DNA of 38,128 nucleotides from Mucilaginibacter sp. (GTDB taxonomy: Bacteria > Bacteroidota > Bacteroidia > Sphingobacteriales > Sphingobacteriaceae): contig JAQBOU010000239.1 in assembly GCA_028287865.1 (NCBI GenBank), forward strand, positions 1 through 38,128, read 5' to 3'. Below the pieces are notes generated by a model. That model was not told where the DNA came from and did no database searches. It was given only the letters and a program-made list of their open reading frames with translations. Below are positions 156 through 27,614 of this stretch, piece by piece. A program made the translations under genes and the position numbers. How positions within the stretch are numbered: position 1 is the first letter of the stretch; each line of letters opens with the position of its first letter.

Positions 156-225
156 TAAATTTTAAAATGCCGTGAGGCAGTTAATTCTTGATTGTAATAA
201 ATTTATTACATTAGCCGTTAAAGTT

Positions 226-1035
226 ATGAATGAAAAATACCGGGTTGCTGTTGTAATTCCCTTTTATCGTAATACGATTTCAGCATACGAAAAAATAGCT
301 TTAGAACAATGTGAAAAAGTATTATCCAATCATCCTAAAATAGCAATTAAACCTCAAAATTTAGATTTGCCCGAAATGGATGATATAATCAGTTTTTCGG
401 GTGTGATAAGTTTCGAAGACAAATACTTCGAAAATATTAAAGGGTACAATTCCTTAATGCTGGCTGATCTATTTTATGAGAAGTTTTTGGAATATGAATA
501 TATTTTAATTTACCAGCTGGATGCATTTGTATTTACAGATGATCTCATCTACTGGTGTAAACAGGGGTATGATTATATTGGTGCACCGTGGTTGCGTAAA
601 AAAGACTACCCACACTTATTAAAAGAACTTTCCTATAAAATTTTGTTTAGCCTTTACACGCGGTATAATATTACAAAAAAAGGTGTTCCAGGCAAAAAAC
701 AATTCGATGACAAAGTGGGTAACGGTGGCTTTTCCTTACGCAGGGTTAGTAAGTTTCATGCATTGAGCACAAGCATGGCTTCAAAAATACAAACGTATTT
801 AAGCCGGGACGAACACGAATTTAATGAGGATGCGTTTTGGAGTGTTGAAGTTAATCGCAAAAAGAAGCTTTTAAATATCCCATCTTACAAAGTAGCCTTA
901 AAGTTTTCAATTGAAAATGCGCCGGCGCGTGCAACTAAGCTCAATGATAATCAGTTACCTTTTGGTTGTCATGCCTGGGACAGACATCTCGATTTTTGGA
1001 GGCCGATATTTAAAAATTACGGTTACATTATTTAA
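226..1035 (+). CDS. DUF5672-family protein, putative glycosyltransferase
   Basis: This 269-residue soluble protein matches my recollection of the DUF5672 family, found in capsule and O-antigen clusters. It opens with a beta strand (VAVVIPFYRN), followed near residue 99 by YILIYQLDAFVF, where the Asp fits a GT-A metal/nucleotide-sugar site, then GYDYIGAPW, NGGFSLR, and EDAFWS. I chose ATG at 226; an in-frame GTG at 172 would add 18 residues with no family resemblance. It follows the ABC exporter end and precedes three more glycosyltransferase-like genes. The donor and acceptor sugars are unknown, and the enzymatic role is inferred from family and context. Confidence 0.75.
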   Translation: MNEKYRVAVVIPFYRNTISAYEKIALEQCEKVLSNHPKIAIKPQNLDLPEMDDIISFSGVISFEDKYFENIKGYNSLMLADLFYEKFLEYEYILIYQLDAFVFTDDLIYWCKQGYDYIGAPWLRKKDYPHLLKELSYKILFSLYTRYNITKKGVPGKKQFDDKVGNGGFSLRRVSKFHALSTSMASKIQTYLSRDEHEFNEDAFWSVEVNRKKKLLNIPSYKVALKFSIENAPARATKLNDNQLPFGCHAWDRHLDFWRPIFKNYGYII

Positions 1036-1202
1036 TCCTTCTGCTTGTATCGAAACCAGGTAACGAACCTTAGATAAATTTGGTTGTACATATTATTTCA
1101 AAAATTATAGCGTTTTGTTGTATATTCATAATCCGGGCGAGTAAGCTGGTTTGTTCGAGGTTGAGAGGACGTTATAAGATTAAAGCTTGTTAAGAATATC
1201 AA

Positions 1203-2036
1203 ATGGATAATTCAATTTCACCCCAAAAAATTACCGGGCTTAATCATAAATATAGATTTACCATCGCTACGTTGGTAACGGAGATGAATGAATACCATGA
1301 AATGGTACAGTCCTTCTTAATGGCGGGTTTTACAAAGGATATTTGCGAGTATATTTATATTGATAACAGTAATGGAAATAGCTTTGACGCCTACCAGGGC
1401 ATTAATTTGTTTTTACAAACGGCCAAGGCGGAATATATTATTATAACACACCAGGATGTCCTGATAAATTTTGATACGATAGACATATTAAACCGGCGCA
1501 TTGATGAAATTGCGAAGAAAGATGAAAATTGGGCAATACTTAGTAACGCTGGCGGAATTGAAAATAATCTGTACCTCCGGGTAGCTATTCATTTGGTATA
1601 TGGGGACGGACACTTGCAAAAGGAGGGTAAATTCCCTCAAAAAGTTTGCAGTATTGATGAGCATTTTATACTAGTCAAAAGGGCGGCAAACCTTTCTTTA
1701 TCACATAATTTAAAAGGTTTTCATTTATATGGTACTGATATTTGCCTTATAGCCGAATTACTGGGTTATTCGGCATATGTAATTGATTTTAAAATCACCC
1801 ATAAAAGCTATGGCAATCCGGATGTGAGCTATCATAATATCCTGAAGCAATTGATCGCTAAATATGTTCAATTTATGCGCAGCCGTACAATTATCACCAC
1901 AATCACTGATTTCAGGTTATCGCCATCGGTAATTAACACCCGTTTCTTTAATGCTAAATTTGTAAAAAAAGCGTACCGTTCAATAAAAAAGATCAATACA
2001 AAACCTGAGGACAGGAAACCTCATAAAATAAATTAA
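1203..2036 (+). CDS. GT-A fold glycosyltransferase-like protein
   Basis: A 277-residue protein with no signal peptide. The N-terminal part (RFTIATLVTEMNEY) and YIYIDNSNGNS resemble the first half of a GT-A domain. H83-Q-D85-V within IIITHQDVLI takes the place of the usual DXD, as in Glyco_tranf_2_5-like proteins. A later HLYGTDICLIAELLGY segment fits the acceptor-side helix of that group. The C-terminus is Lys/Arg-rich. About 165 bases separate it from the upstream gene, so it may have its own promoter; a TAAATTTG box lies at 1075-1082. The sugar specificity cannot be told. It could also be a non-catalytic relative, since the metal motif is atypical. Confidence 0.7.
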   Translation: MDNSISPQKITGLNHKYRFTIATLVTEMNEYHEMVQSFLMAGFTKDICEYIYIDNSNGNSFDAYQGINLFLQTAKAEYIIITHQDVLINFDTIDILNRRIDEIAKKDENWAILSNAGGIENNLYLRVAIHLVYGDGHLQKEGKFPQKVCSIDEHFILVKRAANLSLSHNLKGFHLYGTDICLIAELLGYSAYVIDFKITHKSYGNPDVSYHNILKQLIAKYVQFMRSRTIITTITDFRLSPSVINTRFFNAKFVKKAYRSIKKINTKPEDRKPHKIN

Positions 2037-2093
2037 AACTTAGTTTCTTAAATAATAAATACATTGCTAAATCACATTTAGAGTTGTTTTAAA

Positions 2094-3029
2094 ATGTCAG
2101 CTAAAAATTTCCCTTTAGTATCTATTGCACTGTGTACTTATAACGGGGAAAATCATTTAAAAATGCAAATAGATAGCATACTAGAACAAAGTTATGCCAA
2201 TATTGAGCTTGTTATTGTTGATGATTGCTCAACTGATAGTACTCGGAAAATTTTAGTTAACTATCAAACAAGCGACGACAGGATAAAATTATATTTCAAC
2301 GAGAAAAATCTTGGACATACCAATAACTTTGGGAAGGCAATAGGGCTTTGCAGCGGTAAATATATTGCTTTAAGCGACCAGGATGACATTTGGGTTAGGG
2401 ATAAGATCAGCACATTAGTTACAGCCATTAATGGCAATATATTGGTCTATCATGATTCAGATTTTATCGATGAAGAAGGCGAGCGAATTGGCGATAACAG
2501 TCTTGCAACTATTTATCATATGTATGAAGGGGAAAGCCTACTCCCTTTAATACTATTTAATTGTATCTCCGGCCATGCCGCCCTGTTTGACAGGGCATTG
2601 ATAAAATATATTCTTCCTTTCAATGAACATTTTTTTCATGACTGGTTGATAGCGTACGCCGCCTTTAATGTTGGAAAAATAAAATTCATAAATAGAATAT
2701 TGGTGCATTACCGACAACACAGGGAAAGTATTACCGATACTTTAAGCATGCGCGATAAACATTTATTAGTTCGTAAAAGGAGCGTTATTCAAAAGAAAGC
2801 ACTGAATTTACAATGGTTAAGCTATTGTAAAAATTATAAGTATAACAAGGAGCCCATATTAACGGAGAAAGCATGTCGCGCGCTTTCAAATATGGCAACG
2901 GGAAAAGAAAACGTTAAAAGTTTTCTGTTTTTATTAAGATATTTTGATTTGCTTTTTTATATCAGTTACAAGGTTGCTAAAGGCTTTTTTAGCAAGCTAA
3001 ATATACTACGGAAAGTTTATTTAAGTTAA
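2094..3029 (+). CDS. Family 2 glycosyltransferase
   Basis: A 311-residue GT2 protein of the rhamnosyltransferase (RfbF/WbbL-like) type. It starts with PLVSIALCTYNGENHL, has the nucleotide-binding V42-D43-D44-CSTDS, and carries the acidic motif D95-Q-D97-D98-IW that holds the metal and nucleotide sugar. The segment near residue 155, NCISGHAALFDR, and the following HDWLIAY fit the acceptor/catalytic part of this group. The C-terminus contains hydrophobic stretches that may touch the membrane. It likely adds one sugar to a lipid-linked surface glycan at the cytoplasmic face. The substrate is not readable. It sits 57 bases after the previous gene in the same direction. Confidence 0.88.
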   Translation: MSAKNFPLVSIALCTYNGENHLKMQIDSILEQSYANIELVIVDDCSTDSTRKILVNYQTSDDRIKLYFNEKNLGHTNNFGKAIGLCSGKYIALSDQDDIWVRDKISTLVTAINGNILVYHDSDFIDEEGERIGDNSLATIYHMYEGESLLPLILFNCISGHAALFDRALIKYILPFNEHFFHDWLIAYAAFNVGKIKFINRILVHYRQHRESITDTLSMRDKHLLVRKRSVIQKKALNLQWLSYCKNYKYNKEPILTEKACRALSNMATGKENVKSFLFLLRYFDLLFYISYKVAKGFFSKLNILRKVYLS

Positions 3030-3083
3030 CGTGCACAGAATCATATTCGCTGATTTATATTGATTTCTCTAAAAACAATAAAA

Positions 3084-4037
3084 ATGTCCAAGGTGCCCTA
3101 TCAAACAACGTCAGCCGTATTATTTGTTATATTTAACAGGCCTGATACCACTAGGAGAGTATTTGATCAAATTAAAGCAGCTGAGCCGAAGCGGTTATAT
3201 GTTGCAGCTGATGCTCCACGCAAAGATCATCTTCACGATATCGTATTATGCCGGGAAGCCAGGGAAATTGCAACTGCCATTGATTGGAATTGTGAATTGA
3301 AAACACTTTTCCGGGATGAAAATGCAGGTTGCAGGGACGGCGTTTCCGACGCTATCAACTGGTTTTTTGATCAGGAGGAAGAAGGGATCATATTAGAGGA
3401 TGATTGCTTGCCCGCAAATAGCTTTTTTAAATTTTGTGATGTGTTATTGGAAAAGTATCGACATGACACACGCATACGGCATATTACAGGGTGTAATTTA
3501 CAACTGGGCAAAAAGTGGGGGGAATACAGCTATTATTTCTCAAATAGAATACACGTTTGGGGTTGGGCAAGCTGGAAAAGAGCCTGGAATGACTATGATA
3601 AGGATCTTATTAAATATAATGAGGAAGAGATAACAAATAAAATGAAGAATATTTACGACGATGCTTTGGTAGTTGAAAGCTGGGTAAATATTTTTAAAGA
3701 GGTAAAGGCGGGTAAGATTAATTCGTGGGCCTATCCACTGGATTTTGTTAACTTTTTCAATAATGGGCTTGTGATCATCCCAAATGAAAATCTGATCTCT
3801 AACATAGGCTTTAGTTCAAACGCTACTCATACCATACAGGAAGAAAGCGTATATGCCAATATCCCGTTATCAGAAATTGAAGAAATAACACATCCGGTAT
3901 TCATAGTGCCCGAAAAACGAGCTGATCTCTCCATTATGAACCGTGATTTCCATATAGCTGAGAGACGGAGAAAACAAAATTCACTGAAAAGTAGGATCAA
4001 AAAATGGGCAAAATCACGATTTAAGAAAGTTGATTAA
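3084..4037 (+). CDS. Nucleotide-diphospho-sugar transferase-like protein (HlpA-like)
   Basis: A 317-residue protein with a GT-A like core: AVLFVIFNRPDTT at the N-terminus, LYVAADAPR near residue 40, and the acidic E105-D106-D107-CLP, which acts as DXD in this family. VWGWASWKRAW near residue 165 is typical of proteins often labelled 'hemolytic protein HlpA-like' or nucleotide-diphospho-sugar transferase. The hemolysin label is historical and says little about function. The C-terminus is strongly basic. I chose ATG at 3084; a TTG at 3060 is in frame but adds only a non-conserved octapeptide. It is the last gene of the glycan cluster and is followed by a hairpin terminator. Confidence 0.8.
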   Translation: MSKVPYQTTSAVLFVIFNRPDTTRRVFDQIKAAEPKRLYVAADAPRKDHLHDIVLCREAREIATAIDWNCELKTLFRDENAGCRDGVSDAINWFFDQEEEGIILEDDCLPANSFFKFCDVLLEKYRHDTRIRHITGCNLQLGKKWGEYSYYFSNRIHVWGWASWKRAWNDYDKDLIKYNEEEITNKMKNIYDDALVVESWVNIFKEVKAGKINSWAYPLDFVNFFNNGLVIIPNENLISNIGFSSNATHTIQEESVYANIPLSEIEEITHPVFIVPEKRADLSIMNRDFHIAERRRKQNSLKSRIKKWAKSRFKKVD

Positions 4038-11916: not shown

Positions 11917-11987
11917 GTAGAGGCACGATACTTCGTGTCTTAACTCTATAAAATCATCCAGAGAGACACAAAGTATTGCGCCTCTAC
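11917..11987. repeat. Imperfect palindromic intergenic repeat (GTAGAG type)
   Basis: A 24-base arm at 11917-11940 (GTAGAGGCACGATACTTCGT...) pairs with 11964-11987 across a 23-base loop, with three mismatches of which one can be a G-U wobble. It starts two bases after the helicase stop codon and ends 12 bases before the peptidase ATG. There is no T-run after it, so it looks like an interspersed palindromic element rather than a plain terminator. Similar GTAGAGRCGC...GCGTCTCTAC elements are, from memory, common in Sphingobacteriaceae. Confidence 0.75.
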
Positions 11988-11999
11988 AAACAAAATCAT

Positions 12000-13352
12000 A
12001 TGAAATATTTACTACTTATTATCCCTGCGTTCTTCATTTTACAGGCAAACGCACAAACAACCATCAAACAGGATGCAGCCATTAAGCAAATGGTTGATGA
12101 AGTCTCATCAAAGAATATTGAGGCCACTATCAGGAAGCTGGTGACTTTTAAAAGCCGCCACACTTTAAGCGATACCACCAGCAAAACCGAAGGGAGCGGC
12201 GCTGCACGTAACTGGATAAAGGCTGAATATGAAAAATATGCGTCAGCATCAGGCGGCAGGATGACCGTTCAGTTTGATACCTTTACCCAACCCAAAAGTG
12301 AGCGGATTGAAAAACCGGCGCATTTGAAAAATGTATTGGCTATTTTAAAAGGAACTGATCCGAATGATACCCGGATCTATCTCGTATCTGGCCATTATGA
12401 CTCGAGGGTAACTAATGTGATGAACCCGGATGCTTTTGAACCTGGAGCCAATGACGACGCTTCGGGAACTGCGGTATCTATGGAGCTGGCAAGGGTAATG
12501 GCGAAAAGATCGTTCCCGGCTACCATAATATTTATGGCGGTGGTAGGCGAGGAGCAGGGGCTATTTGGGTCGGCCAATGTTGCCAAACGCGCCAAAGCCG
12601 AAAAATGGAATATTGATGCAATGCTCAATAATGATATTGTAGGCAATACGCATGGCATGGAAACAGATTTGAAGGATAACCGCAGCGTGAGGGTGTTTAG
12701 CGAAGGAGTGCCGTCCACGGCAATAGGCAACGAAAAGCAGATTGCAAGTTTAATTGCTCTGGGTGGAGAAAATGACAGCCCGTCGCGCGAGCTGGCCCGT
12801 TATATTAAGGAAACCGGTGAGCGTTATGTGGATCAGCTGGATGTAAAGCTGATCTACCGCCGCGACCGTTACCTGCGCGGCGGCGACCATGTGCCTTTTT
12901 TACAGCAGGGATTTACTGCTGTAAGGTTTACCGAAATGAACGAGGATTTTAATCGTCAGCACCAGGATATCAGAAATGAAAAAGGGGTAGATTATGGTGA
13001 CCTGCCTGATTTTGTCGATTTTAACTATGTGCAAAAAGTAGCACGGATGAATCTATCCGTGCTGGCAAACTTAGCCCTTGCACCTGCGGAGCCGGTAAAC
13101 GTTGGCGTAATTACCAGCGGCTTAACCAATAAAACACAATTAAAATGGGACGCACCTGCAGCAGGTAAAAAACCAGCAGGCTATTATGTGCTGATGCGTG
13201 AAAGTATCAGTCCGTATTGGGAGAAGAAATTTTATGTGACCGACACTACAGCAATATTAGGCTATTCAAAAGATAATTACTTTTTTGCTGTACAATCAGT
13301 AGATGCTGATGGACATGAAAGCCTGCCGGTATTTCCAAAACCGGTTAGGTAG
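12000..13352 (+). CDS. Secreted M28-family zinc metallopeptidase
   Basis: A 450-residue protein with signal peptide MKYLLLIIPAFFILQANAQ, which sets the start at ATG 12000. The M28 core shows the expected two-zinc ligands and general base in order: H132 in SGHYDSR, D152 in ANDDASG, E184/E185 in GEEQG, D212 in NNDIVGN and H297 in GGDHVPF. Residues about 365-450 form a fibronectin type III-like C-terminal domain (TQLKWDAP ... YFFAVQSVDADGHES). It probably acts as an aminopeptidase in the periplasm or outside the cell. It lacks a type IX sorting domain. A palindromic repeat separates it from the helicase gene, so sharing a transcript is uncertain. Confidence 0.88.
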   Translation: MKYLLLIIPAFFILQANAQTTIKQDAAIKQMVDEVSSKNIEATIRKLVTFKSRHTLSDTTSKTEGSGAARNWIKAEYEKYASASGGRMTVQFDTFTQPKSERIEKPAHLKNVLAILKGTDPNDTRIYLVSGHYDSRVTNVMNPDAFEPGANDDASGTAVSMELARVMAKRSFPATIIFMAVVGEEQGLFGSANVAKRAKAEKWNIDAMLNNDIVGNTHGMETDLKDNRSVRVFSEGVPSTAIGNEKQIASLIALGGENDSPSRELARYIKETGERYVDQLDVKLIYRRDRYLRGGDHVPFLQQGFTAVRFTEMNEDFNRQHQDIRNEKGVDYGDLPDFVDFNYVQKVARMNLSVLANLALAPAEPVNVGVITSGLTNKTQLKWDAPAAGKKPAGYYVLMRESISPYWEKKFYVTDTTAILGYSKDNYFFAVQSVDADGHESLPVFPKPVR

Positions 13353-13365
13353 GAACTAGAGATTG

Positions 13366-13437
13366 GTGATTAGAGGTTAGTAATTAGAAATTGGAAGGAA
13401 TGAGGGCACTAACCTCCAGTCTCTAACCTCTAATCAC
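13366..13437. repeat. Inverted repeat between converging genes (GATTAGAGGTTAG type)
   Basis: GTGATTAGAGGTTAG (13366-13380) is exactly inverted at 13423-13437, a perfect 15-base stem with a 42-base loop. The flanks hold further diverged copies of the AGAGATT/GATTAG words. It fills the gap between the M28 peptidase (+) and the ABC permease (-), where it could end both transcripts. It has no T-tract; the sequence looks like an interspersed repeat. Confidence 0.7.
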
Positions 13438-13443
13438 TACAAC

Positions 13444-14253
13444 CTATTTCACACTTTTCTTCAGTACTATAAAATATCCCAGCATAAAAACAACTGCGGC
13501 TACTACAAGGCTTACCCAGGTATCTTTAGTAAACATATCAACAGTAATTTGCGGCATTGCACCCGGCCCTGGTGTTCCACGGCCTTGCTGAAGGGCATGC
13601 ATTGCCAGCATAGGATGTGAGTAGGGAAACAGATAAGCATATTGCCATCCGGTAGTGGCCAAAATAACACCGGTTATGGTACAAATAAACCCGATGCCCA
13701 TCGGCTTTAAAAAATCGCGGAATAAAAGGCTCAGTAAAAATTGAATGGATAAAATGCCTAGTGAAGACAGGAAAAGCTTTGTATAAAGTTGTATTAAGGT
13801 ATTTGCAATGCTGTATTCATTAAACTTTAGACCAGGTTTTAATACGTGCAATAAATTGCCCAAACCTAATGTAAACAACACAAACAGAACCAGGCATAAA
13901 AGAACCAGAAAAAAAGCATAAAAGTATTTAGCCGAATAAACAGAAAGTTTTGAAATTGGCAGGCTAAACAGCGTTTTCCAAGTGTCTGCTTTATGCTCAA
14001 TACTGTTTACGGAATAACCAATAAACACAATAAGCATAGGTAACAATAACGAACCCATAACCCCTAAAATTGCACCTGCAAACCGCAGCCATAACATAAA
14101 GCCCGGCAAAGTCAATAGTTGATCGCTCTTGTTAAAAAAGCCGAAGAAAAGTAACAGACAAAGTAACAACGGCAACAAAACAGCGCTCCAAAAGCCCATT
14201 GTTTTGCGCGTTTTGTAAAACTCAGACCGGAATGATAGTATAAATCCCTTCAT
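13444..14253 (-). CDS. ABC-2 type transporter permease
   Basis: A 269-residue membrane protein with about six hydrophobic segments, the first after SEFYKTRKTMGFW (a typical entry of ABC-2/lantibiotic immunity permeases: Lys-rich amphipathic helix, then membrane). Others lie at about 53-78, 105-130, 150-175, 180-200 and 245-262. NSIEHKADTWKTLFSLPISK matches the cytoplasmic coupling loop of this family. It begins three bases after the stop of the ATPase gene, so both are in one operon. Export of a peptide or lipid is plausible, the substrate unknown. Confidence 0.85.
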   Translation of the reverse strand: MKGFILSFRSEFYKTRKTMGFWSAVLLPLLLCLLLFFGFFNKSDQLLTLPGFMLWLRFAGAILGVMGSLLLPMLIVFIGYSVNSIEHKADTWKTLFSLPISKLSVYSAKYFYAFFLVLLCLVLFVLFTLGLGNLLHVLKPGLKFNEYSIANTLIQLYTKLFLSSLGILSIQFLLSLLFRDFLKPMGIGFICTITGVILATTGWQYAYLFPYSHPMLAMHALQQGRGTPGPGAMPQITVDMFTKDTWVSLVVAAVVFMLGYFIVLKKSVK

Positions 14254-14256
14254 GGC

Positions 14257-15156
14257 TCAGGCGTTTTGGGTAATGGCTAAAAATAATTTTTCCAGGTCTT
14301 TTTGCTGCTTGTTAATACTGAATACGGTATGCCCGTTTTTGTTAAGCAGTGCATTTATTTCGCCCATTTGTTGCTTGTTAATATAGGGTACAAACAACTG
14401 ATGATCATTTACGTCAGCAACTGTAAAATTATTCCGGGTTAAAAAATTGGCGGCATCTACGGTGTTTTCCGTTTCAACTTGCACTAGTGGCTGGCTCATT
14501 GCTTCCAGGTCCTTAATGCTTCCCTGAAATAGGAGCTCGCCGTGATTGATGATACCAACATGTGTGGCCATGCGTTCAACCTCTGCCAATAAATGGCTCG
14601 ATATAAATACCGTTTTTTGATGTTGGTTTACCAACCTGACCAGCAATTCGCGCACCTCAATAATGCCATTGGGGTCAAGGCCGTTGGTGGGTTCATCAAG
14701 AATGAGCAGTTTAGGATCTGACAACAAAGCCAGCGCAATACCCAGCCGTTGTTTCATTCCCAATGAATATTGACCTGCCTTTTTATCGGCGGCATCTGTT
14801 AAATGCACCAGGTGAAGCATTTCGTCAACCCTTTTTGCCGGTATCTGTAATAATAACGCGCGGTTCAGCAGGTTTTCTTTTCCTGAAAGATGAAGATAAA
14901 TGGCAGGCTGCTCTATTAGCGAGCCAATTTGTGAAAGAATGTTTATGCGGTTGCTTTGCAGCTCCTGTCCGAAAATATGAATGCTGCCTTCCTGTGTTTT
15001 CAACAAGTTAAGCAGTAGTTTTATGGTAGTGGTCTTTCCGGCACCATTTGGTCCCAGGAAACCATATATGCTCCCTTCAGGCACCTGCAGGGAGAGTGAT
15101 TTTACAACCTTTTGTGCGCCAAAAGTAAAGGTTAATCCTTCGGTATTGATTACCAT
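14257..15156 (-). CDS. ABC transporter ATP-binding protein
   Basis: A 299-residue ATPase with Walker A GPNGAGKT at 35-42, the signature segment YSLGMKQRLGIALAL, Walker B LLILDEPTNGLDP, and the H-loop SSHLL. After about residue 215 comes a C-terminal extension (LVQVETENTV ... FSINKQQKDLEKLFLAIT) as seen in ATPases that pair with ABC-2 permeases of the bacitracin/lantibiotic resistance type (BcrA-like). It overlaps by seven bases with a small upstream membrane ORF and lies directly before the permease gene. The divergent LytS/LytTR genes may control it. Confidence 0.9.
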   Translation of the reverse strand: MVINTEGLTFTFGAQKVVKSLSLQVPEGSIYGFLGPNGAGKTTTIKLLLNLLKTQEGSIHIFGQELQSNRINILSQIGSLIEQPAIYLHLSGKENLLNRALLLQIPAKRVDEMLHLVHLTDAADKKAGQYSLGMKQRLGIALALLSDPKLLILDEPTNGLDPNGIIEVRELLVRLVNQHQKTVFISSHLLAEVERMATHVGIINHGELLFQGSIKDLEAMSQPLVQVETENTVDAANFLTRNNFTVADVNDHQLFVPYINKQQMGEINALLNKNGHTVFSINKQQKDLEKLFLAITQNA

Positions 15157-20592: not shown

Positions 20593-23500
20593 ATGGCTGA
20601 TAAACAGGTTTTTCAAACCGATACCCCTGGTAGGTGGATGCGTTTTAAATGGCTTAGCCGTATTATTATTATTGTACTTGTATGCAGTGTTTTAGCCGCA
20701 ATTATTACCATTACATCCAAACAATATCCAAACTTACCAAACTTAAACCCGGCTCCAAAAAAACTGACCAAAGAAGAACTTGAAAGTTTAAAAAGATCAA
20801 AAAAATATAAAGATTTTAAAATTGATAAGGCCGAGATTCAAAAACTGGCCCGATCCCGCCATTTACATCAGCTAAAGCGGCCTAATAATAAAGACCGTAT
20901 AAATGCAGCGTTCTACCGTGCCTGGGAGCCGCAAGCCTACTATTCCCTTGCCGATAATTTTTCAAAGCTGGATATGGTGGTTAGTGAGGGCTTTTTTATT
21001 ATGCCGGGTCATGATACCCTGGTTGCAAATATCGATACCGGACTTGTTAATCTTAACAAAAAGTTTAAAAAGCCGATATTGATCTCCCTTTCAAATTATG
21101 TAAACACAAGCAATACCACCGGTGGCTATGATACCAGGGATATTGAGCGGATCATAAAAAACAAGAAGCTGCGCAGTCAATTTATCATCAACATAGCCAA
21201 ACAGCTTTCACGTTATAAATTCAAAGGGATTAATCTTGATTTTGATGATATTAAAGATATCAACAGTAAAAATTACATTGCCTTTGAAAATGATCTTTAT
21301 GCCATTCTGCATCCGATGGGTTTATTGGTAACACAAAATGTAATACCTGACGATGACAAGTATAATTTAGAACGATTGCAACGGGTAAATGATTTTTTAT
21401 TCGTTATGGCAATTGATCAGCATAACGATGGAAGCAATGCGGGTGATCTTTCAAATCAACACTGGGTTGAAGAAATATTGGATAACGTTTGTACAAGAAT
21501 ACCCAGCGAAAAAGTTATACTGACCATTGCTGCCGGAGCCTATGACTGGCCGGAAAGCAGTGTAGGGAAATCCCTTGGATATCCGCAGGCCATAAGTGCC
21601 GCCCAGGAAAACAATAGTAAAATAACTTTCGACCCCATCTCTGCTAACCTGCATTATACTTATTTTGACCAGGACAGTTTACAGCATACTGTTTATTTTA
21701 CAGATGCAGCGACCAATTTTAATATTATCCGCATGGCTGACGACTGGGCAACGGGCGGCGTTGCGCTTTGGCGATTGGGAGCTGAAGATCCGCGTTTATG
21801 GTCATTTTTTCAAAAGAACCTGGCAATTGATTCATTGCGCAAAACAGGTATCGATGTTAAGAAACTGACTGCTGTAGGGTTAAATAACAGGATTGGTTAT
21901 GATGGAGACGGTGAAGTGCTTGACCTGGTAACACATCCAACAACTGGAAAGATCAATGTGCAGATGGATACAACAAACTTTGTTATAACCAATCAGCAGT
22001 ACATTAAATTACCTACAAAATACGTAATAAGGAGATATGGTTATGCGCCCGGAAAAATAGTATTAACTTTTGATGATGGTCCCGATCCGGATTATACCCC
22101 CCGGATTTTAGATATATTAAAACGGGAACATGTGCCTGCGGCTTTTTTTGTAGTAGGATCAATGGCTGAAAAAAACGTTCCCATTCTTCGCAGGGAATTT
22201 GAAGAAGGTTACGAAATTGGCAACCATACTTTTTTCCATCCTGATATTTCAACTATCAGTGTTGATAGGGTGAAACTTGAATTAAATGCCACAAGAAAGC
22301 TCATTGAATCAGTAACGGGTAAGAGTACTATTTTATTCAGGCCGCCATTCAATGCCGATGCCGAACCGCAAACACTGGCCGAAGTTATTCCGGTAGAGGA
22401 GAGTCGTAAACAAAGTTATATCACCATCGGGGAATCTATTGACCCATGGGACTGGCAGCCTGGTGTAACAGCCGATAGCATTGTTGCCCGTGTTAAAAAG
22501 CAAAGAAATGCAGGTTCAATGTTATTGCTCCATGACGCCGGTGGTGATACACGTGACGAAACAGTTAAGGCCTTGCCTGCAATCATACATTATTTTAAGA
22601 GTCATGGCTATAAATTCACTACCATAGCGGACGTTTTAGGAAAAACAAAAGCAGACCTGATGCCGGCAATAAAAGATGACGCCAATTCAGGTATACTGGG
22701 TTCTTTGTATAATTTACTTATCCAGTTTTATTTTTACGGCAACTGGTTTTTACTGTACCTGTTTTTATCGGCTATATTTCTTGCAGTTGGCCGTATTATA
22801 CTTATAGCAATACTTGCGATAAGGCAATATGCCGAGGATAAAAAAATAACCCGTGCGGTAATTGATAAAAGCTTACTGCCTGCACTCAGTATTATAGTGC
22901 CCGGTTACAATGAAGAGGTTACCGCTATAAAAACCATTCAAAGTTTGCTCAAAACGGAATATCCTGTTTTTGAAATAATTTTTGTTGATGACGGATCAAA
23001 AGATAAAACTTATGACCTTGTAAATAATGCTTACGGCCATCATCCTTTAGTTAAAGTATTAACCAAACCAAACGGAGGCAAAGCATCTGCTCTTAACTTT
23101 GGGATAAGCCATGCCCAAAATAGTTTTGTTGTATGTATTGATGCTGATACCCAGCTAAAGGACGATGCTATTTATCATTTGATGACCTATTTTACCGACG
23201 AGGAAATAGGCGCTGTTGCAGGTACTGTTAAAGTCGGTAACGAAAACAACATGATTACCCGCTGGCAATCTATCGAATATATTACTTCTCAAAATATGGA
23301 CAGGCGCGCTTTTGATCTTATCAATAGCATAACGGTTGTCCCCGGTGCTATCGGAGCCTTCCGTAAATCGGCCATATACAAGGCAGGAGGATTTACTTAT
23401 GATACGCTGGCTGAAGATTGTGACCTGACGATGCGTATATTAAAGCAAGGTTATATAGTAAGAAATTGTGCAGAAGCCATCGCCTATACAGAAGCACCTG

Positions 23501-23967
23501 AAACACTTAACGGCTTGTTAAAACAACGCTTCCGCTGGAGCTTTGGGGTAATCCAAAGCTTTTGGAAAAATAAAGACGCTTTGTTTAATAAAAAGTATAA
23601 GTTTTTTGGGATGTTGGGCATGCCTAATATCCTCATATTCCAAATTGTATTGCCGTTGTTTTCACCATTGGCCGACCTGATGATGATCATTGGGTTATTT
23701 GGCGAAAAGCCGGGTAGGATATTGATATACTACGTAGGCTTTGTGGTGATAGATTTTATTGTGGCTATAATAGCTTTCTGGATGCAAAAGGAGGATTACA
23801 AAAAATTAATATACATTATACCACAGCGATTTATATGGCGCCAGTTAATGTATTATGTATTATTTAAATCCATACGCAAAGCGCTAAAAGGAGAATTGAG
23901 TGGTTGGGGCGCTTTAAAGCGCACAGGGAATGTCATTATAAAAAAGGACGTTGTACTGGAGCAATAA
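20593..23967 (+). CDS. Trifunctional-type membrane protein: GH18-like, NodB deacetylase and GT2 synthase
   Basis: An 1124-residue fusion. An N-terminal membrane span (about 20-40) leads into a GH18-like barrel (about 90-430) with KGINLDFDDI at 211-220, where the canonical acid Glu is D218. Next is a NodB/CE4 deacetylase: TFDDGPDPD with D494/D495, H545-TFF-H549 for the metal, RPPFNAD, and LLHDAGGD. After a membrane span (about 705-745) comes a processive GT2 domain with VDD(799-800)GS, D850-A-D852, LAEDCDLT and Q978-RFRW, then three to four C-terminal spans. By analogy with PgaB plus PgaC and chitin/hyaluronan synthases it may make and trim a beta-linked N-acetylhexosamine polymer across the inner membrane. 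The product is unknown. Confidence 0.9.
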   Translation: MADKQVFQTDTPGRWMRFKWLSRIIIIVLVCSVLAAIITITSKQYPNLPNLNPAPKKLTKEELESLKRSKKYKDFKIDKAEIQKLARSRHLHQLKRPNNKDRINAAFYRAWEPQAYYSLADNFSKLDMVVSEGFFIMPGHDTLVANIDTGLVNLNKKFKKPILISLSNYVNTSNTTGGYDTRDIERIIKNKKLRSQFIINIAKQLSRYKFKGINLDFDDIKDINSKNYIAFENDLYAILHPMGLLVTQNVIPDDDKYNLERLQRVNDFLFVMAIDQHNDGSNAGDLSNQHWVEEILDNVCTRIPSEKVILTIAAGAYDWPESSVGKSLGYPQAISAAQENNSKITFDPISANLHYTYFDQDSLQHTVYFTDAATNFNIIRMADDWATGGVALWRLGAEDPRLWSFFQKNLAIDSLRKTGIDVKKLTAVGLNNRIGYDGDGEVLDLVTHPTTGKINVQMDTTNFVITNQQYIKLPTKYVIRRYGYAPGKIVLTFDDGPDPDYTPRILDILKREHVPAAFFVVGSMAEKNVPILRREFEEGYEIGNHTFFHPDISTISVDRVKLELNATRKLIESVTGKSTILFRPPFNADAEPQTLAEVIPVEESRKQSYITIGESIDPWDWQPGVTADSIVARVKKQRNAGSMLLLHDAGGDTRDETVKALPAIIHYFKSHGYKFTTIADVLGKTKADLMPAIKDDANSGILGSLYNLLIQFYFYGNWFLLYLFLSAIFLAVGRIILIAILAIRQYAEDKKITRAVIDKSLLPALSIIVPGYNEEVTAIKTIQSLLKTEYPVFEIIFVDDGSKDKTYDLVNNAYGHHPLVKVLTKPNGGKASALNFGISHAQNSFVVCIDADTQLKDDAIYHLMTYFTDEEIGAVAGTVKVGNENNMITRWQSIEYITSQNMDRRAFDLINSITVVPGAIGAFRKSAIYKAGGFTYDTLAEDCDLTMRILKQGYIVRNCAEAIAYTEAPETLNGLLKQRFRWSFGVIQSFWKNKDALFNKKYKFFGMLGMPNILIFQIVLPLFSPLADLMMIIGLFGEKPGRILIYYVGFVVIDFIVAIIAFWMQKEDYKKLIYIIPQRFIWRQLMYYVLFKSIRKALKGELSGWGALKRTGNVIIKKDVVLEQ

Positions 23968-24028: not shown

Positions 24029-24514
24029 CTAATTGATCTTCTCTATCAGGCAAACGGCATAAGCAACAATTCCTTCTTCGCGGCCAATGAAGCCTAATTG
24101 TTCGTTGGTGGTGGCTTTTATCGAAATATCTTCAACACTAATTCCGGCGGCGGCGGCAATATTTGCTTGCATTTCGGGTATATGAGGATTTATTTTTGGT
24201 GCTTCGAGGGATATCATCGCATCGATATTATTTATTTCCCAGCCCTTTTCTCTTAACAACTTCATTACGTGCTGTAACAATATTAAACTGCTGATACCCC
24301 TCCATTTTTCATCCTTATTTGAAAAATGAAAACCTATATCACGCAGGTTGGCAGCCCCCAATATAGCATCGCAAATAGCATGTAATAATACGTCGGCGTC
24401 AGAGTGCCCGAATGCACCCGAATGATGTGCTAAATTAACCCCTCCCAAAACAAAAGGATGTTGTTCTTTTAACTGGTGCACATCAAATCCAAACCCTACC
24501 CTTATTTTCCCCAT
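24029..24514 (-). CDS. ispF: 2-C-methyl-D-erythritol 2,4-cyclodiphosphate synthase
   Basis: A 161-residue protein of normal IspF length. It starts RVGFGFDVHQL with metal ligands D11 and H13, has GHSDADVLLHAICDA with the third ligand H45, and the C-terminal ATTNEQLGFIGREEG motif that closes the CMP-binding site. It converts CDP-ME 2-phosphate to the cyclodiphosphate in the non-mevalonate isoprenoid pathway. Its ATG overlaps the porV stop by one base (TAATG), so the two are translationally coupled. The pairing of an isoprenoid gene with a type IX secretion gene is probably only operon packing. Confidence 0.96.
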   Translation of the reverse strand: MGKIRVGFGFDVHQLKEQHPFVLGGVNLAHHSGAFGHSDADVLLHAICDAILGAANLRDIGFHFSNKDEKWRGISSLILLQHVMKLLREKGWEINNIDAMISLEAPKINPHIPEMQANIAAAAGISVEDISIKATTNEQLGFIGREEGIVAYAVCLIEKIN

Positions 24515-25692
24515 TATTTTTTGTTGGAATTCTTATCCCCACCAAAATTAGCAATTAATGTAAAACGCAGCGTATTAGCTAACGGGCTGTTTTGCTGAGA
24601 AGCCGCAAGGTATGAAAAGTCAAAATTATAGCCGCTATACTTAAAACCAACGCCCATAGTAAAATAATGCGCACCGCCCTGGTTAGCGTTTTGGTAAAAG
24701 TAGCCGGCTCTCACCGCAAATAGCTGGTTATACCAGTATTCAATCGCTGGAGAAAGTGTGATCTCCTGTAATTCTTCGCTAAAGCCGTTCGGCGCATCGG
24801 TGAATGAACCGAAAATTCCGGCTGGTACAGAAACATTGTCATCCGTGCCTTTTATAATGTTGCCATTGGCGTCACGTATTGGCGGGGTTGGCACTAATAA
24901 TTTATTAAGATCTAGAGTAATTGTTATTTGATTATAATCATCAAGGTTGATCATGTTTGCCGCGCCGATCTTTAAATTGGCAGGTAAAAAATACTTAGGC
25001 CCACTATTGCTGTAACTTATTTTTGAACCGATGTTTGACATGTTTGTACCAAAGGAAAAAACGGCATCGTTACCGAATTCCTGGAGTGGCTTGTTGTAAT
25101 AAAAAGACACACCGGCCGCTACTGCGTTGCCTGCTTTTGCCTGTTGTCCCGTTCCGGTGGCAAAAAAGGAGTTTGACAAATTTGAATGAATAAAGCCTGC
25201 CGTTAATGCAAGTGAAAAATCATTGCCAAACTTACGGGCAAATGATCCGTTTATTTCAAATTCATTGGGGTTATAAGTGCCCAGGTCATTTTGATTTGCA
25301 TCCCTTAGTTGTACTGTGCCATAATTAAAATAACGCAAGGATGCCCCTATCGAATTGCGTTCATCAACCTTATGTGCATAACTTAAATAGGATAAACTGA
25401 TATCAGGCTGTAATTGTCGCAGCCAGGGGCTATATGATAAAGAAACATCATTGTCATTTGTTAAGAAAGCCAGCTTACTGGGATTCCAATAATTTGCATT
25501 TACATCCGGACTGATGGCAACGCCCGCATCGCCCATTGCTCCGGAGCGGGAATCAGGTGTAATATTTAAAAATGGCACTGCTGTTGGTATAGCAGTTAAA
25601 TTACTCCCATTGGTATTTGTTTGTGACATTGCCAGTGCCGGCAAAAGAAGTGAACAAAGAAAAAAGAGTGATTTAGTAGAAAAAACCTTCAT
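24514..25692 (-). CDS. porV: Type IX secretion outer-membrane protein PorV
   Basis: A 392-residue beta-barrel protein with signal peptide ending around ALAMSQ. After a short linker it has the PorV hallmark AVPFLNITPDSRSGAMGDAG and NYWNPSKLAF, then repeated amphipathic strands of the FadL-like 14-strand barrel and a C-terminal strand FTLIANFGG. PorV binds the C-terminal domains of type IX cargo at the outer membrane and hands them to the PorU sortase. porU, its usual neighbour, is not in this window. The gene is divergent from gldJ, with a 233-base gap between the two start codons (25693-25925). It is cotranscribed with ispF. Confidence 0.93.
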   Translation of the reverse strand: MKVFSTKSLFFLCSLLLPALAMSQTNTNGSNLTAIPTAVPFLNITPDSRSGAMGDAGVAISPDVNANYWNPSKLAFLTNDNDVSLSYSPWLRQLQPDISLSYLSYAHKVDERNSIGASLRYFNYGTVQLRDANQNDLGTYNPNEFEINGSFARKFGNDFSLALTAGFIHSNLSNSFFATGTGQQAKAGNAVAAGVSFYYNKPLQEFGNDAVFSFGTNMSNIGSKISYSNSGPKYFLPANLKIGAANMINLDDYNQITITLDLNKLLVPTPPIRDANGNIIKGTDDNVSVPAGIFGSFTDAPNGFSEELQEITLSPAIEYWYNQLFAVRAGYFYQNANQGGAHYFTMGVGFKYSGYNFDFSYLAASQQNSPLANTLRFTLIANFGGDKNSNKK

Positions 25693-25925
25693 CGGGTTAG
25701 TTGAGTTTTATTAATTAAATAATAAATATAAAATAATTGTGCCCTATTACGCACAACCAGGCAAATAAGTTTTCCACCAAAATAATTCGGATTAAATGAA
25801 ACTCATTCTGTTCAATTTCCGTTTAAAAGCAAATAAAAGATTAACTCCTTTAAAGAATAGGATAAATTAATTAGCATTTTATGCAAAATGTATTAAATTT
25901 ACGTTCTAAAAATAATTGTAAAAAT

Positions 25926-27614
25926 ATGAAAGTACTTTTTACTAAGACTGCTATTGTGTTGTTGGGCATTGGTATCTTATTGAGCAGCTGCAGTAAACAT
26001 CAGCAATCCAGTAAAACCGGGATTACTTATAATGATAAGAAAACTGGTGGTTATGAGCGGTTTAGGCAAACACACCCTAGTCCGGGACCAGGCCTTGTTC
26101 CCATTGAAGGTGGAACCTTTGTAATGGGTGGCAGCGCAGATCAGGATGTTACTTTTGACTATAATAACGTACGCCGCCGGGTAACTGTTCCATCATTTTA
26201 CATGGATGAAACGGAAGTTGCAAACCAGGACTGGCTTGATTACCTTCATTGGATAAGTGTTACTTATCCGCAGGATCACGAATTATATTACAACGCGTTG
26301 CCTGATACATTGGTATGGCGCAAGCCGTTGTCATACAATGAGCCGTATGTTGATAACTATTTAAGGCATCCGGCGTTCCAGGATTACCCGGTAGTAGGTG
26401 TAAGCTGGGACCAGGTGCAGGATTATTGTTCATGGAGAACAGACCGTACCAATGAAAACATTTTACGCGAAAGGGGTAACCTGGTAGCATGGAACGATTT
26501 GAACGGAACTGCAAAAGGAAAAGGCAAAAATGCTACACCGGCTGCTACTAATAAGGATCCTTTTAATACTGATATTTATCTTAACGGCCAATATAAAGGA
26601 ACCGGAATTGACGGTAAAAAAATGATTACTGATCTAAGCCCTAATGCTAAACCTGCTACAGGCGCAAATGGTAAAGGTTCAAAACAACCTGTTAGACCGG
26701 TGCGTATTGAAGATGGTATATTAAAGCAGGGATATCGCCTTCCGTCTGAAGCCGAATGGGAATACGCAGCTTTAGCCTTAATAGGAAACACGCAGTTTGA
26801 GAACATTGATGATGGTAAAATATATCCATGGAATGGCCTGGGTGTACGTTCTGCGAAAAAAGCAACGCGTGGAATGATCATGGCCAACTTTAAACGCGGC
26901 GCTGGTGATAATGCCGGTGTTGGTGGATATTTGAATGATAAAGCGTATATCACAGCTGACGTAAGATCGTATCAACCCAATGATTTTGGCTTATATAACA
27001 TGGCCGGAAATGTAAATGAGTGGGTGCAGGATACTTATCGCCAAACTACATTTGAAGAGTTTGATGATTTTAACCCGTTCCGCGGAAACGAATTCAGCAA
27101 TAAACGTCTTAGTGATGCTTCCAAAGGATTATATGCTAAAGACAAATACGGTAAGCCAATTAAAGACCCGTCTGTATCGAATAAGAAAATGAAGTATGCT
27201 GATCTGCTGGCCTTACAACAAAGCCAGGCTGCAGGTGCTAACGGTGCAACACCGCCGGCAACTGGTGCGCCGGCTGGAACTCCGACAACAGGAGCACCTT
27301 CTGCTGCACCTAAAAACGCTTTAGACGGCAAGCCATTTAATGCGGATTTCAGGGGTTATGGCGATAGTGTAAACACAGTATTATATGGTACTACTACCTT
27401 GGTAAACGATCACTCAAAGGTTTATAAAGGAGGCTCATGGAATGACATGGCTTTCTGGTTAAACCCTGCTACACGTCGCTTTATGAATGAAGACGATGCG
27501 AGTGCTGAAGTTGGTTTCCGTTGTGCAATGACACTGGTTGGCGCGCCTGAAATACATACAGAAGGAAAACCACATTTCGCTGTAAAAAAAGCAAAACAAT
27601 TTAAGGCACACTAA
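25926..27614 (+). CDS. gldJ: Gliding motility / type IX secretion lipoprotein GldJ
   Basis: A 562-residue lipoprotein of the FGE-sulfatase (SUMF1) fold. I chose ATG 25926, giving MKVLFTKTAIVLLGIGILLS followed by SCSKH with the lipobox Cys. The domain begins VPIEGGTFVMGG, then VPSFYMDETEVANQDW, VVGVSWDQVQDYCSWR, YRLPSEAEWEYAA, GLYNMAGNVNEWVQDTYR, and KGGSWNDMAFWLNPATRRF near the end. The catalytic cysteines of FGE are not expected and not evident. A Gly/Ala/Pro/Thr-rich insert (about 27225-27315) and a KGKGKN-rich insert (about 26515) interrupt the fold. GldJ is needed for stability of GldK/type IX machinery in Flavobacterium. A strong hairpin terminator follows. Confidence 0.93.
   Translation: MKVLFTKTAIVLLGIGILLSSCSKHQQSSKTGITYNDKKTGGYERFRQTHPSPGPGLVPIEGGTFVMGGSADQDVTFDYNNVRRRVTVPSFYMDETEVANQDWLDYLHWISVTYPQDHELYYNALPDTLVWRKPLSYNEPYVDNYLRHPAFQDYPVVGVSWDQVQDYCSWRTDRTNENILRERGNLVAWNDLNGTAKGKGKNATPAATNKDPFNTDIYLNGQYKGTGIDGKKMITDLSPNAKPATGANGKGSKQPVRPVRIEDGILKQGYRLPSEAEWEYAALALIGNTQFENIDDGKIYPWNGLGVRSAKKATRGMIMANFKRGAGDNAGVGGYLNDKAYITADVRSYQPNDFGLYNMAGNVNEWVQDTYRQTTFEEFDDFNPFRGNEFSNKRLSDASKGLYAKDKYGKPIKDPSVSNKKMKYADLLALQQSQAAGANGATPPATGAPAGTPTTGAPSAAPKNALDGKPFNADFRGYGDSVNTVLYGTTTLVNDHSKVYKGGSWNDMAFWLNPATRRFMNEDDASAEVGFRCAMTLVGAPEIHTEGKPHFAVKKAKQFKAH

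Follow-up and report, generated by a model that had tools for sequence, protein, structure and literature searches.

Among the systems described so far, those that best compare with the gene treated here combine a GT2 synthase with a CE4 deacetylase. In the PgaABCD systems of Escherichia coli and Bordetella, these enzymes and a barrel domain located outside the inner membrane are distributed over separate proteins, and a GH153 hydrolase follows the deacetylase domain, as PgaB is described in PMC5933820. A different arrangement is that of Streptomyces MatB (SCO2962/SLI_3306), described as a protein with the CE4 domain outside, the GT2 domain inside and a membrane span between them (PMC5972031, PMC4391728), and reported to be required for poly-N-acetylglucosamine (PNAG) staining in Streptomyces lividans, with dispersin B in support (PMC5972031); the PNAG product was supported there by antibody staining and dispersin B. 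Here we analyse a gene from a stretch of 38,128 nucleotides of Mucilaginibacter sp. (assembly GCA_028287865.1, contig JAQBOU010000239.1; "the window" designates this whole stretch), whose product is a GH18-CE4-GT2 fusion, a single polypeptide that carries the modules in the order named. The catalytic positions tested for synthesis and deacetylation are complete in it, while the GH18 domain has lost two residues on which hydrolysis depends, a loss that extends to most of its relatives within the genus and suggests that the domain probably retains the polymer without cleaving it.

The three modules are recognised by Pfam above the curated cut-offs, namely Glyco_hydro_18 at residues 123-397 (E 1e-14, 55.4 bits against a cut-off of 29.6), Polysacc_deac_1 at residues 487-587 (E 3e-30) and Glycos_transf_2 at residues 766-929 (E 2e-33), which agrees with the content and order given in the preliminary description of this DNA. 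The same regions are matched by sequences of the PDB: a probable chitinase and SleL for GH18, PgdA-like deacetylases for CE4 and, among others, chondroitin, cellulose and hyaluronan synthases for GT2. A sequence or frame artefact was considered and rejected, since there is one clean open reading frame (ORF) and orthologues 88-89% identical are present in independent assemblies.

The GH18 fold anticipated in the preliminary description is seen when residues 96-420 are modelled with AlphaFold2 (mean predicted local distance difference test score, pLDDT, 70.7; predicted template modelling score, pTM, 0.69), with a pLDDT below 50 for 67 of the 325 residues; such low values occur in the loop that follows residue 274 and beyond about residue 391. 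The best structural match of this model is SleL (4s3j; Z 28.2, 301 residues, root-mean-square deviation 3.2), with other GH18 enzymes and chitinase-like proteins ranking next. The cortex-lytic SleL/YaaH enzymes are thus the closest in fold and among the closest solved sequences, but in SleL the Glu and Tyr at the aligned positions are present, and the window protein lacks both. In chitotriosidase, this Glu is described as the proton donor, and the Tyr as holding the N-acetyl carbonyl in substrate-assisted catalysis (PMC12502790). In the alignments with 5jh8, 4s3j and 3cz8, Asp218 of the window protein stands opposite the catalytic Glu and Ile274 opposite the Tyr, so that neither the acid Glu of the DxE motif nor the substrate-assisting Tyr expected of an active GH18 is there. 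A Glu shifted by one residue was also considered, and rejected, as position 219 is D, E or N in Mucilaginibacter as well as in the relatives that keep Glu218. An unconstrained relic was likewise rejected, given that the domain is full length and that W393, D318 and W319 are invariant in 97 of 97 Mucilaginibacter sequences. These replacements suggest that the domain is probably inactive as a hydrolase. A lectin function is considered likely for GH18 proteins that lack the Glu (PMC1945033), and chitinase-like lectins of the YKL-40/CHI3L1 type, which are among the structural matches of the model, have similarly kept the GH18 barrel after losing the catalytic Glu, although they are animal proteins without a synthase fusion. 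As in them, the cutting residues are lost while the barrel and aromatic residues are kept, and by this analogy the domain probably binds or guides polymer.

This pattern was followed in an alignment of 141 distinct full-length family members (7 duplicates dropped), comprising 97 from Mucilaginibacter, 34 from other Bacteroidia, two from a sister genus and eight more distant ones. In earlier sets, 103 of 123 loci counted as full length, partial ORFs and GT2-only loci being left out, with 92 distinct sequences in a first tree and 115 distinct rows in an intermediate alignment (1 duplicate dropped); the partial sequence L035 was left out of two of the alignments. Asp216, Glu218 and Tyr274 are each kept in all 34 other Bacteroidia, compared with 73, 22 and 2, respectively, of the 97 Mucilaginibacter proteins, so that the three are found together in 34/34 versus 2/97. 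At least one is lost in the other 95, the window protein included, and Glu218 and Tyr274 are both gone in 75. The two sister-genus members (L041 and L133) keep the Glu and have lost Asp216 and Tyr274. As for the eight distant members, four (from Deinococcus and Sphingomonadaceae) align with an intact D, E, Y, W set, and four Rhodobacterales (three Sulfitobacter and one Limimaricola) align with Ser or Thr at the Glu position.

Considering the positions that are invariant in the 34 other Bacteroidia, the Mucilaginibacter majority loses 4 of 41 in GH18 (V109, E218, D256 and Y274), whereas outside this domain, as far as residue 1112, all 156 such positions are retained. With two short segments left out (4/41 against 0/146) this gives a Fisher p of 0.002, and the earlier 71 Mucilaginibacter rows had given 5/41 against 0/146 (p 4e-4) and a chance of 0.012 that both named catalytic sites be among 5 random losses of 41, values that are guides only, because the rows are related. 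Mean protein identity in GH18, CE4 and GT2 is 0.69, 0.87 and 0.85 within Mucilaginibacter and 0.48, 0.62 and 0.64 in the other Bacteroidia. The ratio of nonsynonymous to synonymous substitutions (dN/dS) is 0.035 in GH18 against 0.014 in CE4, a weak comparison with only 15 of 2556 pairs unsaturated, although the protein identities show the same tendency. A quick tree built from the alignment columns beyond residue 483 requires at least four changes between intact and broken GH18 sites, although long-branch warnings accompanied its first version and it cannot separate loss from regain.

These data bear directly on the possibility of a full make-modify-cut machine, as the preliminary description had proposed, in which the GH18 domain would hydrolyse the polymer during its synthesis and deacetylation. 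The fold is there, both by Pfam and by the match to SleL; PgaB is reported to couple deacetylation with limited hydrolysis (PMC5933820), and such a machine may hold for relatives, because D, E, Y and W are kept in the 34 other Bacteroidia and, by alignment, in the four Deinococcus and Sphingomonadaceae proteins (two of them with a GH18 recognised by Pfam). For the window protein, however, it is improbable in view of Asp218, Ile274 and the fate of these sites in the genus, and in two CE4-GT2 proteins of actinobacteria Pfam detects no GH18 at all. A more tentative proposal, which we regard as a possibility well short of likely, is that the hydrolase of a single-chain polymer-making machine became a guide that does not cut, and that what is essential is the barrel rather than cleavage. 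This change would have taken place in Mucilaginibacter together with its sister genus, and perhaps a second time in Rhodobacterales. The Rhodobacterales parallel is weaker than the alignment suggests, because none of the four proteins has a GH18 that Pfam recognises. In a bolder form, the GH18 domain, its Glu gone and Asp216 mostly kept (73 of 97), could have converged on a PgaB-like single-Asp site that acts on deacetylated polymer, against which speaks the variation at position 216.

Regarding the other two domains, the ten CE4 positions checked are invariant throughout the family alignment, apart from one substitution at 646, and variation in the ten GT2 positions checked is confined to 799, where 8 of the 141 rows have N. 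The window protein has the standard residue at all twenty, so that making and modifying are the parts of the earlier proposal that stand. Its parallel with PNAG systems stands in part too: PgaB does join a deacetylase and a hydrolase, but GH153 is a family different from GH18 and occupies the opposite side of the deacetylase (PMC5933820). By analogy, MatB appears to be the nearest characterised relative found and a better parallel than PgaB, as it also has CE4 and GT2 with an intervening span on one chain, and the corresponding motifs are intact in the window protein. It differs in being presented as a protein of two functional domains, with no GH18 in the papers' description (PMC5972031, PMC4391728), and in lying beside matA and an icaC-like gene, as described, while no partner is evident at the window locus. 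MatB is likened to the window protein by published description; the sequence comparison covers CE4-GT2 proteins from Streptomyces (L129) and Kocuria (L130) plasmids, 36-37% identical over 97-98% of the CE4 and GT2 part of the window protein and devoid of GH18 by Pfam.

In NCBIfam, the GT2 domain scores highest with PgaC_IcaA (192.6 bits), followed by TIGR03111 (113.1) and NodC (95.5), and the CE4 domain with PdaB (135 bits), followed by PgdA-like deacetylases (about 120) and NodB (112), all of them under their cut-offs. As a PgaC-like GT2 together with a PgdA/NodB-like CE4 is the combination reported for MatB, a PNAG-like product is favoured. Its main rival is a beta-1,4 polymer resembling chitin or chitosan, made by a NodC-like GT2 and modified by a NodB-like CE4, the GH18 domain having formerly trimmed beta-1,4 GlcNAc chains. 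The matches to NodB, PgdA-like proteins and NodC fit such a product, and so do the solved GH18 relatives, which are chitinases and cortex-lytic enzymes, but the GT2 score with PgaC_IcaA is twice that with NodC, and the CE4 of MatB also looked beta-1,4-directed, in spite of which the mat mutant was reported to stain normally with calcofluor white and to lose PNAG staining (PMC5972031). We regard a beta-1,4 product as rather unlikely, if still worth serious attention.

Hydropathy locates membrane spans at residues 24-42, at 723-741, just before GT2, and others at about 1004-1061, and the family average also peaks at the first two and at 1018-1061. The spans at the N-terminus and before GT2 that the preliminary description had proposed are therefore there, and the sidedness that it assigned fits them. 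The charge bias agrees at span 2, where the side towards GT2 has 5 basic and 3 acidic residues and the opposite side 1 basic and 2 acidic, and is uninformative at span 1 (5 basic and 2 acidic before, 4 basic and 0 acidic after). The full-length AlphaFold2 model was poor (mean pLDDT 56.1, pTM 0.31) and was not used for topology or Foldseek inference. From hydropathy and from where such enzymes work, GH18 and CE4 would lie outside, because GT2 would be in the cytoplasm, where nucleotide sugars are. Taken together, we consider it reasonably probable that this is a single-chain poly-beta-GlcNAc synthase/de-N-acetylase of the MatB/PgaC kind, whose GH18 domain is now a glycan-binding pseudo-hydrolase. 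The cytoplasmic GT2 would polymerise UDP-N-acetylglucosamine and, with the surrounding membrane spans, export the growing chain; the CE4 domain, anchored by spans 1 and 2 at the outer face of the membrane, would strip some N-acetyl groups from the emerging chain; and the chitinase-shaped GH18 barrel ahead of it, its cutting residues lost in Mucilaginibacter, would hold or guide the polymer without cleavage. The polymer would then have to cross the outer membrane.

Several observations weigh against this reading. As far as the GH18 domain is concerned, the loss of its catalytic residues in the genus is not total, because two Mucilaginibacter proteins (L087 and L154) keep the full set and 20 more keep the Glu without the Tyr; L087 and L154, with an apparently intact site, would be natural controls. 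Asp218 itself could keep a weak acid function. Furthermore, Pfam recognises GH18 in only two of the eight distant members (L099 and L101) and in none of the four Rhodobacterales, and the reading of the other six is one of alignment, because Pfam does not recognise the domain there. Regarding the product, the GT2 score lies far below the cut-off of the PgaC/IcaA equivalog (TIGR03937, 422.3 bits), the CE4 domain resembles peptidoglycan and chito-oligosaccharide deacetylases more closely than PgaB/IcaB, and none of the GH18-CE4-GT2 proteins found has a known product. The expected partners, a PgaD-like protein and an outer-membrane exporter, were not found either, in a source assembly that is 85% complete. 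Genome-wide, PgaD (PF13994) has no match, in spite of a positive E. coli control. The PgaA model (TIGR03939) has three short matches only (best 27.4 bits against a cut-off of 366.65); it gave matches in 12 of 14 control genomes, only one of them, expected to be E. coli, above cut-off. Neither does the genome contain any match to the hydrolase family of PgaB (GHL13/GH153, PF14883), for which 198 genomes of the phylum gave 2 weak matches and none above cut-off. This accords with the earlier statement that PgaA and PgaD are not nearby, as neither was recognised in the window translations, read by eye and for the most part not family-scanned. By the tests run, the window protein lies outside the PgaC/IcaA equivalog and the PgaABCD system.

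The architecture is not new, and the earlier remark that similar fusions exist in databases is borne out by genome and plasmid matches and by published lists of carbohydrate-active enzymes (CAZymes): it occurs in nearly all sampled Mucilaginibacter, in other Bacteroidia, in Deinococcus and in Alphaproteobacteria. The 55 close loci (67-97% identity) are titled Mucilaginibacter or Bacteroidetes metagenome-assembled genomes, and 36 of 37 Mucilaginibacter genomes match at E 1e-60, some only partially. A family-wide draw gave matches at 1e-80 in 99 of 251 genomes (50 Mucilaginibacter and 49 others), with two Mucilaginibacter misses among the genomes listed; misses in this draw may be false, as only two candidates were scored per genome. 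Elsewhere the distribution is patchy. At the class level the fusion was found in 10 of 198 genomes, and at the phylum level 53 of 296 matched, 17 over nearly the whole protein and 36 over the GT2 part alone, in shorter ORFs. In addition, 19 plasmid records cover at least 80% of the fusion protein, and the 15 of these listed come from Prevotella nigrescens, Deinococcus, Sphingobium, Novosphingobium, Sphingomonas and Sulfitobacter. In the literature (open PMC papers) no functional study of the fusion was found, only two architecture listings with the same three modules, to which the window protein is likened by description: ZP_09465738 of Acetivibrio cellulolyticus, in a CAZyme list as GH18-CE4-GT2 (PMC3413522), and a protein of Sphingobacterium multivorum w15, listed as CE4-GH18-GT2 (PMC7065263).

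Table 1. Positions of the features in the window and of the DUF3131 genes in related loci (L numbers).
Feature	Position	Strand	Remarks
GH18-CE4-GT2 fusion gene	20593..23967	+	1124 aa plus stop, ATG start, uninterrupted single ORF
N-terminal membrane span, residues 24-42	20662..20718	+	Hydropathy peak 2.88; family average 2.6
GH18 (SleL/YaaH-like) domain, residues 105-412, predicted extracytoplasmic	20905..21828	+	Pfam, PDB sequence matches, model
Degenerate GH18 motif, residues 216-218 (D-F-D)	21238..21246	+	218 aligned with catalytic Glu of 5jh8, 4s3j, 3cz8
Ile274 replacing GH18 substrate-assisting Tyr (MAYD to MAID)	21412..21414	+	Alignment
CE4/NodB de-N-acetylase domain, residues 484-684	22042..22644	+	D494 D495, H545, H549, R583, D620 W621, H647
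Second membrane span, residues 723-741, predicted to return the chain to the cytoplasm	22759..22815	+	Hydropathy
GT2 processive synthase domain, residues 763-985	22879..23547	+	DDG 799-801, DxD 850-852, ED 941-942, QRFRW 978-982
C-terminal membrane spans, about residues 1004-1064	23602..23784	+	Hydropathy
DUF3131 genes	L102:9015-11552, L126:5998-8448, L127:6106-8436, L128:5905-8394		Annotation

In Mucilaginibacter, the recurrent neighbours of the fusion gene are a GATase-like gene (38 of 55 loci, whose flanks are often incomplete), ispF (42), porV (40) and an FGE-sulfatase-domain gene (41), and no polymer-export gene is among them. In the window, the genes for PorV (type IX secretion) and for the FGE-sulfatase-domain protein, the latter presumably GldJ-like, lie downstream at 24514-27614, and four ORFs at 172-4037 resemble glycosyltransferases or sugar-transfer proteins, as judged by eye from the translations. 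In Rhodobacterales, a gene annotated as DUF3131 (Pfam confirmed for two) directly follows the fusion in the four loci and might supply a replacement enzyme where the GH18 Glu is missing from the alignment. In Kocuria rosea, a chitinase-annotated gene (L130:5972-6958; GH18 match under cut-off) adjoins the two-domain CE4-GT2 gene, and in Deinococcus the fusion gene is followed by that of a diguanylate cyclase (L099:9327-10862), which could point to control by cyclic di-GMP (c-di-GMP).

On Sphingomonadaceae plasmids, AcvB/VirJ is encoded near the fusion in three loci (L100, L101 and L131), annotated as a lysyl-phosphatidylglycerol (lysyl-PG) hydrolase in L101, and an MprF/LPG-synthase gene is near it in L100 and L101, hinting at a role in envelope charge; these genes lie at L100:9087-12432, L101:4780-5532 and 11959-14553, and L131:9765-10730. 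These neighbours would fit an envelope remodelling function on peptidoglycan, in which the glycan made by the GT2 domain is attached to the wall rather than secreted as a polymer, and so would PdaB and then PgdA as best CE4 matches and the cortex-lytic SleL as best structural match of GH18. Nonetheless, peptidoglycan trimming does not require a processive GT2 that has QxxRW and membrane spans on either side, and GH18 is probably inactive in the window protein, which makes this function very improbable.

Whether a hydrolase inside an exopolysaccharide synthase cuts or holds is a live question for PNAG-like systems, the barrel of PgaB having initially been taken for a domain that binds PNAG and is required for its export, before its cutting activity was demonstrated, as recounted in PMC5933820. 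Annotation of the window protein as a chitinase would be misleading. In this family, the coexistence of forms with an intact site (34/34 other Bacteroidia) and apparently dead forms (95/97 Mucilaginibacter), with the conserved residues in the rest of the chain unchanged, provides a natural experiment that could separate the two roles.

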